A stretch of 49,657 nucleotides of DNA from an uncultured Spirochaetales bacterium (GTDB lineage Bacteria > Spirochaetota > Spirochaetia > Sphaerochaetales > Sphaerochaetaceae), in assembly GCA_949285145.1 (NCBI GenBank), contig CASDXQ010000008.1:1-49657 (forward strand). The letters are read 5' to 3'. The stretch's first letter is position 1, and the number at the start of each line of letters is the position of its first letter. Shown here piece after piece: positions 1,776 to 23,607 of the stretch. The notes below the pieces were generated by a model, which saw only the letters and a program-made list of their open reading frames with translations, ran no database searches and was not told the DNA's origin. The position numbers were made by a program, and so were the translations under genes.

Positions 1776-1844
1776 GCCAACTGTGGTAATGAAATTCCGC
1801 CAAGTCCGGTAATGAAAATGCGCCAACTGCGGTAATATATTGAA
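1776..1844 (+). repeat. Array of three 23-nt repeat units upstream of DUF4143 ATPase 1
   Basis: Three units begin at 1776, 1799 and 1822. Each opens with GCCAA(C/G)T and carries GGTAAT 9 nt later, so the period is exactly 23 nt. The last unit runs into the -35 box of the ATPase promoter. Units 2 and 3 are repeated almost exactly after the gene, at 3180. The spacing and promoter overlap suggest an operator or iteron-like protein-binding array. No CRISPR-style spacers are present. Confidence 0.85.
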
Positions 1845-1868
1845 TTTTTACTTATCTTATAATAAAAT
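1840..1868 (+). promoter_or_regulatory. Leaderless promoter of DUF4143 ATPase 1
   Basis: -35 TTGAAT (1840-1845), a 17-nt spacer and -10 TAAAAT (1863-1868) lie only 6 nt before the ATG at 1875. There is no Shine-Dalgarno sequence, so the transcript should start at or beside the start codon. The -35 is inside the third repeat unit. Confidence 0.65.
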
Positions 1869-1874
1869 ATATTT

Positions 1875-3155
1875 ATGAGTAAAAATTATGTTCCAAGATT
1901 GGCTGATGAACTGTTAAAACTTCATCTGGAAAGCAGCGGTGCCGTTCTTATCGAAGGAGCAAAATGGTGTGGAAAGACGACATGTGCCAGGCAGGCGGTA
2001 AAAAGCATTGCGGATCTGGGTGATCCTGATAAGGAAGATGAATATCTGGCTATGGCAGATATTGCTCCATCAAAAATTCTGGAAGGAGAACGGCCCCGGC
2101 TTATTGATGAATGGCAGCGGATCCCGAAGCTTTGGGACTCTGTCCGTGTGCAGGTTGACAGGCTTGGAGGTTTTGGCCATTTTGTCCTGACGGGATCTGC
2201 CTCTCCTTTGAGAAGGGATGAGGATAAGAGAAGGCACAGCGGTACAGGCAGGATATCCCGTCTTCTCATGTACCCGTTCACACTTCTGGAATCAGGAGAC
2301 TCCGACGGTTCGGTAAGTTTGAGAAAGCTTTTTGCAGGGGAAGGTGAAATTGACGGGTTCAATCCGATTGATATAGACAGGCTTGCCTTTCTCTGTTGCC
2401 GCGGGGGATGGCCTGCAGTGTGCTGTGCCGGGAATATCAGTGACAGGGCTGCTCTGATGGCGGCAAAGTCTTATGTCGATGCAATCTGTTCAAGAGAAGT
2501 GGATATGACAGATGATGTGGTTTTCGATTCACATAAAATGAGACAGTTTCTTCGTTCCTATGCAAGAATGACAGGTTCTCAGCAACCTGTTTCCCAGATG
2601 GTCAGAGATATTCCCTCTTCTTTTTCCGAGAAAACGGCTTATTCGTATAACAGTCTTCTTAAGAGAATTTTTGCTGTGGATGATATGAGTGCATGGAATG
2701 TAAACCTGCGTTCCCGTACGGCCGTCAGAACATCCGACACTCATTATTTCTGTGATCCTTCCATTGCTGCTGCCGCTCTGGGCATAGGGCCGGGTGATCT
2801 TATAAATGATCTGAAGACTTTCGGCTTCATATTCGAAAATCTGTGTGTACGGGACCTCCGTGTATACAGCTCCGTTCTTGGCGGTACTGTTTTTCATTAT
2901 CGCGACAAATCGGATCTTGAATGTGATGCTGTCGTTCACCTTGAAAACGGTAAATTCGGTCTAATAGAAATAAAACTCGGCGGGAAAGAAGCAATTGAAT
3001 ATGCAGCAAAAACTCTCAAGGAATTGGAAGGGCGTATTGATAAGGAAAAAATGGGATCTCCTTCATTTCTCATGGTTCTTACTGGTGTCGGTTCTTATGC
3101 CTGGCGGAGGGAAGATGGTGTGTTTGTCGTCCCGGTAAGTACTCTTGGTGTTTGA
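1875..3155 (+). CDS. AAA-type ATPase with DUF4143 / PD-(D/E)XK-like C-terminus (copy 1)
   Basis: A 426-residue predicted cytoplasmic ATPase. A Walker A motif GAKWCGKT lies at residues 28-35 and a Walker B-like LIDEW at 76-80. The C-terminal half matches DUF4143 proteins and contains a spaced D...EIKLG signature (about residues 347-370) typical of a PD-(D/E)XK nuclease fold; whether it cuts DNA is unknown. It is clearly paralogous to the gene at 22330, sharing the Walker motifs, HSGTGRI, the FADPS/FCDPS region and EIKLG. The ATG has no ribosome binding site and follows a leaderless promoter. Direct copies of the upstream repeats flank it on the 3' side. The physiological role of the family is not established to my knowledge. 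Confidence 0.85.
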   Translation: MSKNYVPRLADELLKLHLESSGAVLIEGAKWCGKTTCARQAVKSIADLGDPDKEDEYLAMADIAPSKILEGERPRLIDEWQRIPKLWDSVRVQVDRLGGFGHFVLTGSASPLRRDEDKRRHSGTGRISRLLMYPFTLLESGDSDGSVSLRKLFAGEGEIDGFNPIDIDRLAFLCCRGGWPAVCCAGNISDRAALMAAKSYVDAICSREVDMTDDVVFDSHKMRQFLRSYARMTGSQQPVSQMVRDIPSSFSEKTAYSYNSLLKRIFAVDDMSAWNVNLRSRTAVRTSDTHYFCDPSIAAAALGIGPGDLINDLKTFGFIFENLCVRDLRVYSSVLGGTVFHYRDKSDLECDAVVHLENGKFGLIEIKLGGKEAIEYAAKTLKELEGRIDKEKMGSPSFLMVLTGVGSYAWRREDGVFVVPVSTLGV

Positions 3156-3179
3156 CCTCAACTTCCACACCGAAAATTC

Positions 3180-3225
3180 GCCAAGTCCGGTAATGAAAAT
3201 GCGCCAACTGCGGTAATATTTTTGA
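3180..3225 (+). repeat. 3' copy of the 23-nt repeats flanking DUF4143 ATPase 1
   Basis: Units starting at 3180 and 3203 match the upstream units at 1799 and 1822 over about 40 nt and then diverge. A degenerate unit may precede them (about 3157-3179, sharing CAACT and GAAA-TTC). Together the two copies form direct repeats bracketing the ATPase. No gene with a recognisable promoter follows this copy; the next gene is on the opposite strand. Confidence 0.85.
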
Positions 3226-3327
3226 TTTTTCTTTGTAATGTAAACAATTATATTTTGCTCAAATTGAAGCTTGTTCTTTATGTTTTTTAGTGTTGGAAAT
3301 TTCTTGTTTTATTACAGCGAAGAAACA

Positions 3328-3372: not shown

Positions 3373-4114
3373 TCACTCATTCTCTTCTTCAAACCAGGGA
3401 GAGAGGAATATCTTTGTGCTTCTGTTCATCTCCGCCATAAAATCGGAAGTGTATTTTTTGTTGAAATAACGATCCCCGTAGGTTCCCTTGTTGTCAAGCG
3501 GAAGTGTTTTGTTCTCCCTTGAGAAATCCTCCTGGTTTTTATACATCTTCTCCATCATCTCATATGTGATCTCGGGATATTCATCCGTGAAATAGAAAGC
3601 ATCGTTGTCGGGACGGGGAAGGAGAGGTGCCTTTATCTCTTCTTTCGGATAACCGATGACGAGAAGACATGCGGGAGCTGCGAAAGCGGGGAGATGGAAT
3701 GCTTCTTTCACCGTCTCATAATTTTCTATTATGTCCCCGATATAGCAGGATCTCAGGCCGAGGCTCTCGGCTGCAAGCACGCAGGTCTGAGCCGCAGCCA
3801 TCGCATCCTGCATCCCCAGATGGAAGTCTCCGATGCCGGGCTTCCTTATCGGCTTGCCGAATTTCTCATCACATTTCGAGCCTTTGAAATACTCAATCCA
3901 TTTGTGAGTGTCAGAGAGGAAAAAATAGACAAGAGGTGCTTTTGCGATGAATCTTTTCGGGGTCTCTTACTCTTATCATGGACCACAGCTGCATGTTGCC
4001 GCCGCTGGGGGCGCGCAGTGTCATTGTAAGCAGTTTATCCTCAACTTCCTTCTCAACAGGACGGGATGCAAATGTACGGTAACTTCTTCTTTTGAGTATC
4101 ACATCATCGAACAT
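3373..4114 (-). pseudogene. Nitroreductase-family flavoprotein, frameshifted
   Basis: The N-terminal part starts at the ATG at 4114 behind a strong AAAGGAGG site and reads ILKRRSYRTFASRPV and APSGGNMQLW, the FMN-binding start of nitroreductases. After DPEKIH (about 3945) it runs into a stop at 3911-3913. The missing middle is present in another frame (AKAPLVYFFLSDTHKW...), which continues through AAESLGLRSCYIGDI and VIGYPKEE to 3373. Joined together, the two frames give a normal protein of about 245 residues. One net single-base frameshift therefore separates two otherwise intact halves. The damage looks recent, or it could be a sequencing error. Confidence 0.8.
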
Positions 4115-4313: not shown

Positions 4314-4964
4314 TTATTTTTGATTCAATGCGGCGTGTTGACAAATCCATGATTTCACCAATATATTGTGAGTAGAGGCGGTAACATCTGATGGCAATTG
4401 CAGCCTAACAGAAAGTGCCGCCTTAGAATTATCTAAATCATTCCAGTAAATAAGAAGTCCTTTCTTAATCCAGTTTTGAAGCTGTTGTACGGGCCGTCCG
4501 TATATGCTGCTGATTAGATTCACTTCAATATTCTGTGTTGCGCCCAGTTTTGTAGACAGACTGATCATCACAGGAGTATTCTGCTTATCAAGAACGGAGT
4601 GGACAGATACAATAGAATTGTTTCTTGTCGCGGATTTGAAAACATACAGAGGGTCTGCAAGATTATCCGCTATATGACTGATTATCTTTTTATCAATACT
4701 GTAGCTATGTCCGTGCTTTTCGTTTTTGCCAAGATAGGTGGCATGTGCAAGTTTGTCTCTGTATGCGATCACAGGAAGATCGGGAAGAGACAGAAGTCTG
4801 AAAATATATGGCGTTGACGGGTATGCATTCGGTCGTCCTATGTCAGCTTCGCACAGGCTTTCTATTTCTTCCCTGACTGATGAAGGACAGACTGACTGGA
4901 AATATCTGTCGTCATTATTAAGTTTCACTTTGTTGCCGGCATCTGTTTTATGTTTGTCTTCCAC
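4314..4964 (-). CDS. Orphan MuF-C-like domain protein
   Basis: A 216-residue protein starting at a GTG (4964) 6 nt behind a GGAGG site. Residues from about 80 to 170 (DKKIISHIADNLADP, then VFKSATR, a VNLISSIYGR block and WIKKGLLIYWND) resemble the MuF-C domain found at the C-terminus of phage MuF capsid-associated proteins and in phage polyvalent or toxin-like proteins. The match is from memory of family patterns, not a search. No phage genes adjoin it and no immunity gene is obvious. It could be a domesticated phage fragment, a stand-alone effector or a defence-related protein. Confidence 0.55.
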   Translation of the reverse strand: MEDKHKTDAGNKVKLNNDDRYFQSVCPSSVREEIESLCEADIGRPNAYPSTPYIFRLLSLPDLPVIAYRDKLAHATYLGKNEKHGHSYSIDKKIISHIADNLADPLYVFKSATRNNSIVSVHSVLDKQNTPVMISLSTKLGATQNIEVNLISSIYGRPVQQLQNWIKKGLLIYWNDLDNSKAALSVRLQLPSDVTASTHNILVKSWICQHAALNQK

Positions 4965-5218: not shown

Positions 5219-8200
5219 ATGGCTAAAAAGTATGTAACAATTGATGGCAACACCGCTGCTGCTCATATTGCCTATGCATTCAGCGATGTAGCTGCTATCT
5301 ACCCCATCACTCCTTCCTCCCCGATGGCTGAGTATTCAGAACAGTGGGCTTCAATGGGAAGGGAGAACCTTTGGGGAAGACAGGTAGACGTAATGGAAAT
5401 GCAGTCAGAGGCTGGTGCTGCCGGTGCAGTTCACGGCTCCCTCGTTGCAGGTGCCCTCACCACAACATTCACTGCATCCCAGGGTCTTCTTCTCATGATT
5501 CCGAACATGTTCAAGATCGCAGGCGAGATGCTCCCTTGTGTCTTCCATGTATCTGCACGTTCAATCGCTGCACAGTCTCTGTCAATCTTCGGAGACCACT
5601 CTGACGTCATGGCATGCCGCCAGACCGGTTTTGCAATGACATGTGCTTCCTCAATCCAGGAAACAATGGATATGGCTCTCGTCGCTCATCTTTCAACACT
5701 TGAGGCAGAGGTGCCGTTCCTTAACTTCTTTGACGGTTTCAGAACATCCCACGAGATCCAGAAGGTCGAGGAGATCTCCTACGACGATATCAGGACTCTG
5801 GTTGACGAGAAGCTCATCGCAAGATTCCGCTCAAGAGCCCAGAAGCCGGAAAAGCCGCAGATTCACGTGGCAAGCCAGAACGAGGACGTTTACTTCCAGG
5901 GCCGTGAATCTTCAAACAAGTATTATGATGCAGTGCCTTCCATCGTCCAGAAGTACATGGACAAGGTAGCTGCCCTGACAGGCAGACAGTATCATCTGTT
6001 TGACTATGTCGGTGCTCCCGATGCGACAGATGTCGTCATCGTCATGGGCTCTGCTGCCGATACATTCGGCTGGGCTGTTGACTACATCAACGCAAGAGGC
6101 GGCAAGGTCGGTCTTGTCAAGGTACGCCTCTATCGTCCCTTCTCTGCCGAAGCTCTTGTTGCAGCTATTCCTCAGACAGTCAAGAGAATTGCAGTCATGG
6201 ACAGGACAAAGGAACCGGGTTCACTCGGTGAACCTCTCTTCCTCGATGTGGTGGCCGCTCTCAATGCAGAAGGCAGAAACGGCATCAAGGTCATCGGCGG
6301 CCGCTATGGTCTTTCTTCCAAGGACTTCACACCGAGCCATGCAAAGGCTGTTTATGACTTCCTTGCAACAAAGGACGCATTCCACGGCTTCACAGTCGGT
6401 ATCAACGATGATGTCACACACAAGTCAATTCCTGTAAACGACATCATCAACGTAACTCCGAAGGGAGTTGTAAGCTGCATGTTCTACGGTCTCGGTTCTG
6501 ACGGTACTGTCGGTGCCAACAAGAACTCCATCAAGATCATCGGCGACAACACAAACCAGAATGCCCAGGCTTACTTCGCATATGACTCGAAGAAGTCAGG
6601 CGGTATCACGATTTCCCACCTGAGATTCGGCGAAGGCAATCTCGACATGCCGTGGCTCATTGACCATGCCGATTTCGTCGCATGCCACAACCCGGCATAC
6701 ATCGGCCGCTATGACATGCTCGACACTCTCAAGGAAGGCGGTGTGTTCCTTCTCAACAGCGCAATTCCTTCTGACGAGGTTTTCGAACATCTGCCGCGCC
6801 ATGATCAGGAGATCATCATCAACAGGAAGATCCGTTTCTACAACATCAATGCTCTTGCAATTGCACAGAAGGCAGGTCTCGGCACAAGGATCAACACAGT
6901 CATGCAGGCTGCATTCTTCAAGATCTGCGGTGTCCTTCCCGAGGATGAGGCAATCGACCTTATCAAGAAGTACATCAAGAAGACCTTCCTCAAGAAAGGT
7001 GAAGATGTCGTAAACAAGAACTGGGCTGCTGTTGACGGAGCTTCCGAAGCTCTTGTCGAGGTCAAGGTTCCTGCAGTCATCACAAAGAGTCTTGAGCCGA
7101 AGAAGCTCATTCCGGATGATGCAAGCGACTTCGCAAAGCACAACATCCTTCCGATCATGCACCTCAAGGGAAATGACATTCCTGTATCCTGCATGAGCGT
7201 TGACGGTACACTTCCTTCAGGTACATCCAAGCTTGAGAAGAGAGGCGTTGCAGCCTTTGTTCCTCACTGGGATTCCTCAAAGTGTATCCAGTGCAATCAG
7301 TGTGTTCAGTCCTGTCCGCACGCAGCAATCCGTGCAAAGCAGATCACACCGGCAGACATGGAGAAGGCTCCTTCTACATTCCATGCAATCAAATCAAACA
7401 CAAAGAACGAGAGAGACCTCCTCTTCAAGATTCAGGTCTACACAGAAGACTGCCAGGGCTGCGGAGTCTGTGTTGAAGCCTGTCCTGCAAAGGAGAAGGC
7501 ACTTTCAATGGTTGACGTTGAAGGCGAGAGAGCAGCAGGTGAAATCGAGAACTGCGAGTTCTTCGAGAACCTCACATATGACAACCTCGATGGTCTCAAC
7601 ATGAACACCGTGAAGGGTCTGCAGTTCAAGCAGCCTCTTTTCGAGTTCAGCGGTGCATGTGCAGGCTGCGGTGAGACACCTTATGTCAAGATGCTTTCCC
7701 AGATCTGCGGAGAGAGAGCTGTCATTGCCAACGCAACCGGCTGTTCTTCAATCTATTCCGGTACATACCCGACAATTCCTTACACAAAGAGAGCCGACGG
7801 ACGCGGTCCGGCATGGGGCAACTCACTCTTTGAGGATAACGCCGAATATGGTCTCGGCATGAGACTTGCCATCGATTCCAACAGAGGTCTTCTCAAGGCA
7901 AAGTGCGATGCTCTCATGGCAAAGGGCTGTTCTGCAGAGCTCAAGGCTGCGATCGAGAAGTGCTACGGCCTCTGGGATGACATGACAGAAGCTTCCATCA
8001 CGGCACAGAATGAGCTTCAGGCTGTTCTTGCAAAGGAGAAGGCTGCAGATGCAGAGTCTCAGGCTCTTCTGGACAAGATCGTCGAGCTGCAGGACTACTT
8101 CGCTGACAAGAACGTCCTCATCATCGGCGGTGACGGATGGGCTTATGATATCGGATACGGCGGTGTTGACCATGTTGTCGCTTCCGGCAAGAACGTCACA

Positions 8201-8758
8201 ATCCTCGTTCTCGATACAGAGGTTTACTCCAACACAGGCGGACAGGCTTCAAAGTCAACTCCGCTCTCAGCCGTTGCGAAGTTCGCCAACTCCGGTAAGA
8301 AGCTCGGCAAGAAGAACATGGGCTTCATGTGCATGAGCTACGGCTATGTATATGTCGCATCCTGTGCTCTCGGCTACAACAGACAGCAGGCTCAGAAGTG
8401 TCTCCAGGAAGCAGTTGCTTACAAAGGACCTTCAATCGTGTTCTGCTATGCTCCTTGTATCAACCACGGTATCAACATGAGATACTCACAGGTTGAGGCA
8501 AAGAAGGCTGTTGAGGCTGGCTACTGGCCGCTTTACCGCTTCAATCCTGAAGCAGAAGCAGGCAAGAGATTCACATGGGAGACAAAGCCTGCTACAGCTG
8601 ACTACGTCGAATTCATCAAGGGTGAGGTTCGCTACTCATCACTTTACAAGACAAATCCGGAGCATGCTGACGAGCTCTTCGCAAAGGCAGCTGCTGATGC
8701 AAAGGAACGCCTTGCATTCTATGAGAAGACCGGTGCTGTCATGGGTGAAATTCTCTAA
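5219..8758 (+). CDS. nifJ: Pyruvate:ferredoxin (flavodoxin) oxidoreductase
   Basis: A single-chain enzyme of 1179 residues, normal for the family. It oxidatively decarboxylates pyruvate to acetyl-CoA with CoA, CO2 and reduced ferredoxin, the central anaerobic pyruvate reaction. In order it shows the N-terminal thiamine-pyrophosphate pyrimidine-binding region (YPITPSSPMAEY), the CoA-binding middle, a two-[4Fe-4S] ferredoxin insert (CIQCNQC near residue 688 and CQGCGVC near 745), the third-cluster CAGCGETPY near 814 and the pyrophosphate-binding GGDGWAYDIGYGG near 965. The ATG follows GGAG. Codon use is strongly biased to a small codon set, as in highly expressed genes. The stop-codon region is tandemly duplicated. 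Confidence 0.97.
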   Translation: MAKKYVTIDGNTAAAHIAYAFSDVAAIYPITPSSPMAEYSEQWASMGRENLWGRQVDVMEMQSEAGAAGAVHGSLVAGALTTTFTASQGLLLMIPNMFKIAGEMLPCVFHVSARSIAAQSLSIFGDHSDVMACRQTGFAMTCASSIQETMDMALVAHLSTLEAEVPFLNFFDGFRTSHEIQKVEEISYDDIRTLVDEKLIARFRSRAQKPEKPQIHVASQNEDVYFQGRESSNKYYDAVPSIVQKYMDKVAALTGRQYHLFDYVGAPDATDVVIVMGSAADTFGWAVDYINARGGKVGLVKVRLYRPFSAEALVAAIPQTVKRIAVMDRTKEPGSLGEPLFLDVVAALNAEGRNGIKVIGGRYGLSSKDFTPSHAKAVYDFLATKDAFHGFTVGINDDVTHKSIPVNDIINVTPKGVVSCMFYGLGSDGTVGANKNSIKIIGDNTNQNAQAYFAYDSKKSGGITISHLRFGEGNLDMPWLIDHADFVACHNPAYIGRYDMLDTLKEGGVFLLNSAIPSDEVFEHLPRHDQEIIINRKIRFYNINALAIAQKAGLGTRINTVMQAAFFKICGVLPEDEAIDLIKKYIKKTFLKKGEDVVNKNWAAVDGASEALVEVKVPAVITKSLEPKKLIPDDASDFAKHNILPIMHLKGNDIPVSCMSVDGTLPSGTSKLEKRGVAAFVPHWDSSKCIQCNQCVQSCPHAAIRAKQITPADMEKAPSTFHAIKSNTKNERDLLFKIQVYTEDCQGCGVCVEACPAKEKALSMVDVEGERAAGEIENCEFFENLTYDNLDGLNMNTVKGLQFKQPLFEFSGACAGCGETPYVKMLSQICGERAVIANATGCSSIYSGTYPTIPYTKRADGRGPAWGNSLFEDNAEYGLGMRLAIDSNRGLLKAKCDALMAKGCSAELKAAIEKCYGLWDDMTEASITAQNELQAVLAKEKAADAESQALLDKIVELQDYFADKNVLIIGGDGWAYDIGYGGVDHVVASGKNVTILVLDTEVYSNTGGQASKSTPLSAVAKFANSGKKLGKKNMGFMCMSYGYVYVASCALGYNRQQAQKCLQEAVAYKGPSIVFCYAPCINHGINMRYSQVEAKKAVEAGYWPLYRFNPEAEAGKRFTWETKPATADYVEFIKGEVRYSSLYKTNPEHADELFAKAAADAKERLAFYEKTGAVMGEIL

Positions 8759-8780
8759 GTTGGGTGAAATTCTCTAAGTT
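8743..8780 (+). repeat. 19-nt tandem duplication over the nifJ stop codon
   Basis: The 19-mer GGGTGAAATTCTCTAAGTT occurs twice in direct succession (8743-8761 and 8762-8780). The first copy contains the last codons and TAA stop of nifJ; the second lies just outside the gene. This is what slipped-strand replication would leave. Confidence 0.95.
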
Positions 8781-22187: not shown

Positions 22188-22244
22188 CTTGTCTCTTTCC
22201 ATATCCCTATACACAAAAAGTCCTGATTTTGTGCAAAACTCAGA

Positions 22245-22313
22245 ATTTTTCCGGATACATTAAGGAAATATTTCCGAGTGGATCTGGGAAATATTGCCGA
22301 ATGAGTTTTTGTG
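22245..22313 (+). repeat. Array of three 23-nt-period units upstream of DUF4143 ATPase 2
   Basis: Units begin at 22245, 22268 and 22291, each with AT(A/T)TTTCCG or ATATTGCCG at its start; the first two end GGAA. The sequence differs from the array at 1776, but the period (23 nt), number (three), position and overlap with the -35 box are the same. GG(A/T)AAT and CC(A/G)A elements occur in both. Confidence 0.65.
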
Positions 22314-22329: not shown

Positions 22330-23607
22330 ATGGATAAATATCTTCCCAGACTGATAGACAGTGTACTTGATGTGTATCTCCGCACATTTGGTGCCGTCAG
22401 CATAGTAGGCCCTAAATGGACAGGAAAAACCGTTACCTGTGAGCAGAGGGCGAAAAGTGCGTTTTATTTTACCGGTCGTCCGGGACAGCCAGATCCTCTT
22501 GCTCTGGCTTTGACAGATTCTTCATATGTTTTTCAGGGTGAAAAGCCACGTCTTATTGATGAATGGCAGCTTATGCCTCAGCTATGGGATATGATCCGTG
22601 GTGATATTGACTCCCGTCATGGCGAGCGCGGACTGTATCTGCTTACAGGATCCTCACTCCTGCCTCAGAAAACCAGGACTGGAAAAACGCTTGTACACCA
22701 CAGCGGCACAGGGCGTATCGGATCATTGAAGATGTCTACAATGACACTTTATGAGACAGGGGATTCGTCAGGAGAAGTTTCTCTGGCTTCTCTTTTTGAA
22801 GGAGAAAAAGTACATGGAAGCATAAGGGAAATCAGGCTTGCAGAAATAATTCATTTCATAATAAGAGGAGGCTGGCCGGGAAATCTTGACACGGAAGATC
22901 CTTCCATCATTCCACGTGATTACATTTCCAGGGTATGTGATGAAGATTTTGATAAGCTTGAAGGCGTGAAGATAGACAGGATAAAGTTCAGGAGATTCCT
23001 GTATTCTCTTGCACGAAATGAAAGTACTGTCTGTTCAGCATCAACATTAAGCAGAGATGCCGGAGAAAATGGAAGCAAGCTGGATGATTCAACTGTGAAT
23101 TCTTATCTCAATATTCTCAAAATGCTTTTCCTTGATGAGTCACAGCCTGCTTTTTCTCCGTTTTTCAGATCCAGAACAAGGTTAAAAATAGGAGAGAAAC
23201 GTCATTTTGCAGATCCCTCTCTTGCTGCTGCAATAATGGGTGCAAACGAGAAGAATCTGCTGTCAGATCTGCAGTATCTCGGGTTTCTGTTTGAAGCTCT
23301 CGCAGAGCACGATCTCAGAATCTATGCTCAGGTGCTGGGCGGGGAGCTTTTCCACTATCAGGATTATGATAACGATGAAGTGGACGCAGTCATCCAGTTG
23401 CAGGACGGACGGTTTGCACTTATTGAAATAAAGCTCGGAGCAAATGAGAAAATCATAGATGAGGCGGCGCGTTCTCTTGTAAAAGTGAGCGGTAAAATGG
23501 AGCGTAAACCCGACTTCATGGCCGTTGTTTCAGGTATGGCATCCGCCCCATATTGCAGAAAAGAGGATGGAGTATTTGTTCTTCCTCTGACTTCACTGAA
23601 ACCGTAA
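22330..23607 (+). CDS. AAA-type ATPase with DUF4143 / PD-(D/E)XK-like C-terminus (copy 2)
   Basis: 425 residues, paralogue of the gene at 1875. Walker A GPKWTGKT at residues 27-34, Walker B-like RLIDEWQ near 77-83, HSGTGRIGSLKM, FADPSLAAAIMG, and the nuclease-like EVDAVIQLQDGRFALIEIKLG near 353-374. Leaderless start without a ribosome site behind a three-unit array. It neighbours a toxin-antitoxin pair, which fits an accessory island, but no transposase is seen. Unlike copy 1, I find no second repeat array after it. Function unknown. Confidence 0.85.
   Translation: MDKYLPRLIDSVLDVYLRTFGAVSIVGPKWTGKTVTCEQRAKSAFYFTGRPGQPDPLALALTDSSYVFQGEKPRLIDEWQLMPQLWDMIRGDIDSRHGERGLYLLTGSSLLPQKTRTGKTLVHHSGTGRIGSLKMSTMTLYETGDSSGEVSLASLFEGEKVHGSIREIRLAEIIHFIIRGGWPGNLDTEDPSIIPRDYISRVCDEDFDKLEGVKIDRIKFRRFLYSLARNESTVCSASTLSRDAGENGSKLDDSTVNSYLNILKMLFLDESQPAFSPFFRSRTRLKIGEKRHFADPSLAAAIMGANEKNLLSDLQYLGFLFEALAEHDLRIYAQVLGGELFHYQDYDNDEVDAVIQLQDGRFALIEIKLGANEKIIDEAARSLVKVSGKMERKPDFMAVVSGMASAPYCRKEDGVFVLPLTSLKP

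Follow-up and report, generated by a model that had tools for sequence, protein, structure and literature searches.

The closest described relative of the system reported here is PDC-S01, the putative single-gene defence entry of PADLOC (COG1373 / AAA_14-DUF4143), which is reported to rank fourth in frequency among defence entries in prokaryotes, with most PDCs awaiting validation (PMC12988326). Two reports name the family as a candidate for defence (PMC12988326, PMC13356809). Here we describe a member of this family in a 49,657-nucleotide stretch of DNA from an uncultured Spirochaetales bacterium (the window), which is one whole contig (CASDXQ010000008.1) of a 2.06-Mb genome whose nearest named relatives are Spirochaetaceae metagenome-assembled genomes. 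The gene (1875–3155, forward strand) encodes 426 amino acids and is flanked on both sides by arrays of 23-nt direct repeats. By profile the protein belongs to the same family as PDC-S01 and, like it, joins an ATPase to a PD-(D/E)XK nuclease. Within this large group the array is the mark of a single clade, and sister members have dyads; the account of PDC-S01, as far as its text was available, mentions no operator array.

Two other arrangements bear on this locus. Plasmid Rep iterons are direct repeats, each about two helical turns long, that adjoin the gene for a DNA-binding protein; they mediate autoregulation, and their specificity is unique to each system. Known STAND and ORC-type proteins, the STAND activator MalT and its like included, form oligomers or attach to DNA sites that occur in repeats. 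Here too a direct-repeat array lies beside the gene, as in iteron-Rep systems, but the gene encodes an ATPase-nuclease rather than a Rep protein, the modules are mostly chromosomal, and there is no sign of an origin. Unlike a CRISPR array, the units run head to tail, and the stretches between their cores are mostly repeated too rather than being unique spacers.

In the window, three upstream units spaced at exactly 23 nt occupy 1776–1798 (GCCAACTGTGGTAATGAAATTCC), 1799–1821 (GCCAAGTCCGGTAATGAAAATGC) and 1822–1836 (the core of the third), all on the forward strand, and the last runs into the promoter and abuts the −35 region. A predicted −10 box, TATAAT, follows at 1858–1863, 11 nt 5′ of the ATG, leaving the gene near-leaderless; a first-pass annotation of this DNA had called it free of a ribosome site, which holds, and in the family leaders are commonly short or missing. 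After the gene, units of the window type recur at 3180–3202 and 3203–3217, followed at 3218–3255 by a diverged copy of the promoter stretch with no gene behind it, so that the two flanks are alike over about 84 nt, promoter stretch included (83%). The first-pass annotation had all five units in the right places and at the right spacing, and its claim that two of them are repeated after the gene stands, but it overlooked a third in-register unit, CTCAACTTCCACACCGAAAATTC (3157–3179), whose first base lies one nt past the stop codon. This unit is clearly not of the window type: it differs at 2 of 23 positions from CTCAACTTCCACATCGAAAATGC, the unit of the paralogues L063 and L064.

The window contains a second AAA_14-DUF4143 gene (22330–23607, forward strand), about 40% identical to the first, with its own 23-nt array of three units directly upstream (22244–22303) that are unlike those of the first gene. 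A blind scan of the 49.7-kb window for periods of 22–24 nt returned three arrays only, all at these two genes, and period-23-type arrays thus lie at 2 of 36 window genes, both DUF4143. A genome-wide dispersed element, which the first-pass annotation named as the finding that would undo its proposal, is not what we see: the window unit is absent elsewhere in the 2.06-Mb genome, whether sought as a degenerate 15-mer or as a 23-mer with up to three mismatches, and no further unit copies were found outside arrays in this genome or in related ones. Among viral sequences, there was a single match to the window unit, on one contig, and none to a common genus unit.

We drew homologues from related genomes, plasmids, and phage and viral collections, obtaining 188 distinct genes that were divided by profile score into the clade of the window protein (at least 450, n = 141), distant members (220–450, n = 9) and typical DUF4143 proteins (below 220, n = 38), and searched the 220 nt upstream of each gene. 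Sampling was densest in one family, and other phyla are represented by about a dozen plasmid or phage-collection records. A significant upstream array is present in 127 of the 141 clade members, with a period of 23 in 108, 24 in 10, 46 in 8 and 45 in 1; when sub-threshold arrays are counted, one of these four periods is the best in 136. Downstream, anything significant was seen in 11 of 141, with mixed periods. Arrays of 22–23 nt occur in 5 of the 9 distant members, and upstream arrays of period 22–24 were found in none of the 38 sister-subfamily genes. Array-bearing homologues lie on plasmids of Bacteroides, Collinsella, Prosthecochloris and Lentilactobacillus, and a 22-nt period is found in Rhizobium/Novosphingobium. 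The earlier expectation that homologues would share a period of roughly 23 nt, with about three units near the −35 box, is therefore borne out across phyla. The midpoint of a tree separates the array-bearing set from the DUF4143 proteins that have no array, a split with weak support (65); nine rows on the array side are without a significant array, several of them having a weak one. A period-23 signal was also seen at "control" genes in the vicinity of DUF4143 loci, but we did not use it as background because some of these genes share the same intergenic array (coordinates were checked for some, not all); the clean control is the window scan. We found no account of such arrays in the literature searched, a search that left preprints and many subscription papers outside.

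The median array has three units, the longest seven. Among 98 period-23 arrays, about 16 positions agree between units at 83–91%, and about seven, mostly A-rich, at 72–80%. They are almost always upstream, with a median of 39 nt between the end of the last core and the ATG, and since the distance from the last core to the predicted −10 box ranges from a few to about 30 nt, the last unit covers or abuts the −35 box. In 18 genes only 6 nt separate the −10 box from the ATG. Sister-subfamily genes show a different promoter architecture: significant dyads occur at 24 of 38, compared to 7 of 60 in the array clade, and those of the no-array genes (L100–L129) often surround TTGACA, for example TGGTACAATTTGTA...TTGACAATTTGTACCA in L104. 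It is as if the superfamily had two unrelated forms of operator, array and dyad, each serving autoregulation in its own group. Upstream of one ATPase gene (L168), two head-to-head units make up a perfectly inverted pair, GCCAAAGTTAGGAA-TACTG-TTCCTAACTTTGGC, rather than a plain tandem array.

The sequence of the unit diverges quickly, and nearly all copies of the gene have units of their own. Unit similarity is 0.87 at 80–99% protein identity and falls to a background of about 0.57 below 45%, and there are protein pairs of 70–83% identity with unlike units. Paralogues in one genome carry different units, which excludes a shared host factor as a simple explanation. The pairing of array and gene suggests, at the level of sequence, that each protein recognises and controls a private DNA address.

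Array and gene also travel together. Among gene pairs with the same unit, 158 of 167 have no detected common neighbouring gene, many available flanks being short, and their DNA homology extends from the left edge of the array or nearby to 0–130 nt past the stop codon. Since the limits of homology fall at the array edge and the stop, array and gene move jointly as about 1.4 kb. The first-pass suggestions of a self-contained unit and of an autoregulated DNA-binding system both gain from this, the second as the probable interpretation. A strong direct repeat between the two flanks was found in 7 of 133 modules, made up of array units in the window module alone, and because arrays on both sides are exceptional, excision between them is not a general mechanism. 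Unlike DNA transposons, the modules are without general terminal inverted repeats, which rise above control in 2 of 133. Dispersed repeats containing GTGCCAGGTAC or similar sequence lie beside modules L164, L185, L043 and L038, with a 47-nt copy on each side of the L164 module. In L217, a long gap-free direct repeat (128 positions) with tRNA-like sequence flanks the ATPase gene on both sides and may be a tRNA-linked insertion mark.

Gene-free alleles are found in sister species. G012, whose GdhA is 97% identical, has a three-unit array and no gene at the gdhA site. This solo array opens with a unit nearly identical to unit 1 of the window; its left side matches the window's upstream copy and its right side the downstream copy, including the stretch at 3218–3255. 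Judged by its sequence, it is the exact recombination product of the window's two arrays, and so fits the clean excision, leaving one array copy, that the first-pass annotation had proposed looking for in related genomes. Loss of a cassette by recombination between flanking arrays can thus be upheld for this junction, but not as the general mechanism. G001 has neither array nor gene at the site, and the array is also missing from several more distant relatives in which gdhA and the nitroreductase gene keep their order, so it was gained on this branch. The solo array would most simply be the leftover of a lost gene, with a separate loss of the array in G001 being possible. At three further loci the gene is present in G000 and a solo array of two to four units in G001 and/or G012; at two more, G001/G012 keep an intact gene and G000 retains remnants of it, next to which array units or similarity to the array region can still be seen. 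The orphan units at the metK locus of G001 and G012 have no other copy in those genomes. A homing endonuclease gene would have gene-free alleles whose intact recognition site receives the gene; the solo arrays observed here may be either such targets or leftovers.

The window protein exceeds the Pfam gathering scores for PF13173 (AAA_14; 46.3 bits against 27) and PF13635 (DUF4143; 98.4 against 28.1). The Pfam search gave no further family, and by profile the protein is not a replication initiator. The PDC-S01 profile matches residues 1–424 (E 1e-57), and further family members match it as well. A sequence search of the PDB gave no credible relative. In a structure model (predicted local distance difference test, pLDDT, 87; predicted template modelling score, pTM, 0.89), residues 1–304 match the archaeal AAA ATPases 2qen (Z 14.2, root-mean-square deviation (rmsd) 4.7, 257 aligned) and 2fna (Z 13.5, rmsd 4.5, 258 aligned), and the model also resembles NLR/CED-4 and ORC/Cdc6 structures in a fold search. 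The C-terminal 145 residues alone match McrC (6hz4; Z 9.5, rmsd 3.7, 130 aligned) and Can2 (8q41; Z 9.3, rmsd 4.2, 139 aligned), with Card1 also similar. The predicted fold is thus a STAND/ORC-like ATPase, a winged helix and a McrC/Can2-like nuclease. Walker A (G28...G33 K34; 1956–1979) is invariant or nearly so in the 188 proteins, and Walker B (D78 E79; 2106–2111) is invariant in them. A winged-helix region is predicted at about residues 217–275 (2523–2699) from model secondary structure and STAND/NLR-like matches, with boundaries set by eye. The putative PD-(D/E)XK domain (2811–3152) contains E321 and, as its D...ExK motif, D351, E365 and K367, all conserved in 97–99% of the array clade; Walker and nuclease residues together range from 97 to 100%. 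The likeness to STAND/MNS ATPases and ORC/Cdc6 (2qen, 2fna) is limited to the predicted fold of residues 1–304: unlike them, this protein has a C-terminal nuclease and a private, fast-changing array at its own promoter. Similarly, the C-terminal domain appears to share the PD-(D/E)XK fold of McrC, Can2-Card1 and NucC, but the nuclease lies in one chain with the ATPase, and no CARF domain was found in the window protein.

We favour, as reasonably probable, a mobile single-gene nuclease module with a private operator array that its own protein would bind to regulate itself. In it, an array of between two and seven direct repeats of 23 nt would be joined to a promoter and to the gene of an ATPase that carries both a winged-helix region and a PD-(D/E)XK nuclease. 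The protein most likely occupies its array in a row, with one protomer bound to every 23 bp, and would thereby control, most simply by repression, its own promoter, whose −35 region the last unit abuts or overlaps. That the encoded protein recognises the array and controls its own promoter is argued for by the paralogue-specific units, their travel with the gene, the promoter position and the dyads of sister members. Being inherited and moved jointly, array and gene would keep a private, fast-changing protein-DNA match in each lineage, and after gene loss the array could remain as a solo array. An invariant nuclease site hints at a role beyond that of a repressor; nuclease activity is presumably why the module is kept, most likely to attack foreign DNA and possibly to promote its own spread. 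Defence, which the first-pass annotation had also raised, is placed before self-propagation since databases count the family among candidate defence genes, a listing that is itself unvalidated.

Several observations weigh against this interpretation. Some solo arrays retain three clean units, for which a pure operator gives no reason. The spacing between array and −10 box is variable, so that neither simple repression nor activation is proven. A covariation search for specificity residues did not single out the winged helix or any other domain; partial correlations are weak everywhere and highest in windows at about residues 269–312 and 337–360. Finally, units within one genome are no more different from each other than expected, and there is thus no sign of selection for orthogonality.

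Unlikely, but the strongest of the competing explanations, is a selfish element in which the array is the site where the ATPase-nuclease copies or inserts its own module, with solo arrays as landing pads or leftovers and regulation secondary. Module boundaries at the array edge, rapid change of specificity and the conserved nuclease site all suit it, as do four loci where gene-present and gene-absent alleles differ at or beside the array; the contrast between the array-gene-array of the window and the solo array of G012 is as expected if a gene had integrated at an array or been excised from one. Yet nearly all modules have an array on one side only and are without the terminal inverted repeats noted above, the array sits at the promoter in fixed orientation, and sister subfamilies bear ordinary promoter dyads instead. 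Moreover, the lack of an array at the gdhA site in most genus relatives makes that solo array more simply the leftover of a lost gene, and at other loci the gene has plainly decayed or been deleted beside its former site. Also doubtful is that the module, whether a selfish or a defence gene, recognises itself, its protein reading the 23-nt array as a private address both for setting expression and for moving into or out of matching arrays; if so, genomes would gather solo arrays and chimeric ones, like that downstream of the window gene, as traces of earlier residents. It is improbable that the array, although close to the promoter, is an operator or activator site of a defence nuclease that is bound by another factor or serves activation only: units differ between paralogues of the same genome and follow the gene to unrelated loci, and fixed helical spacing to the −10 box is not seen. 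Functionless neutral tandem duplication in AT-rich intergenic DNA would explain why unit number differs between close relatives (four in L026, six in L025), but is very unlikely given the clade-wide period, which is the same at genes below 30% protein identity with unrelated units, and given the restriction of arrays to this clade and, in the window, to its DUF4143 genes.

Three neighbouring features of the window were also recorded. The nitroreductase gene adjoining the array (3373–4114, minus strand) is split over two frames, and because the sister sequence L237 has extra bases at about 3950, it looks broken in the genome or the assembly. The minus strand at 4314–4964 encodes a lone protein whose C-terminal domain is of the phage MuF type (PF18819, E 1.7e-19), and a perfect 19-nt tandem duplication (8742–8780) lies at the end of a 1179-aa open reading frame (5219–8758).

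The family is among the commonest putative prokaryotic defence genes, and no mechanism has hitherto been known for it. For every array-bearing member of the clade, the genome sequence itself now supplies a prediction of the cognate DNA ligand, which opens the family to direct binding, specificity-swap and promoter assays. The clade would offer a large natural collection of ATPase-nucleases, each matched in specificity to its DNA, and an example of a module of about 1.4 kb that travels with its own operator.
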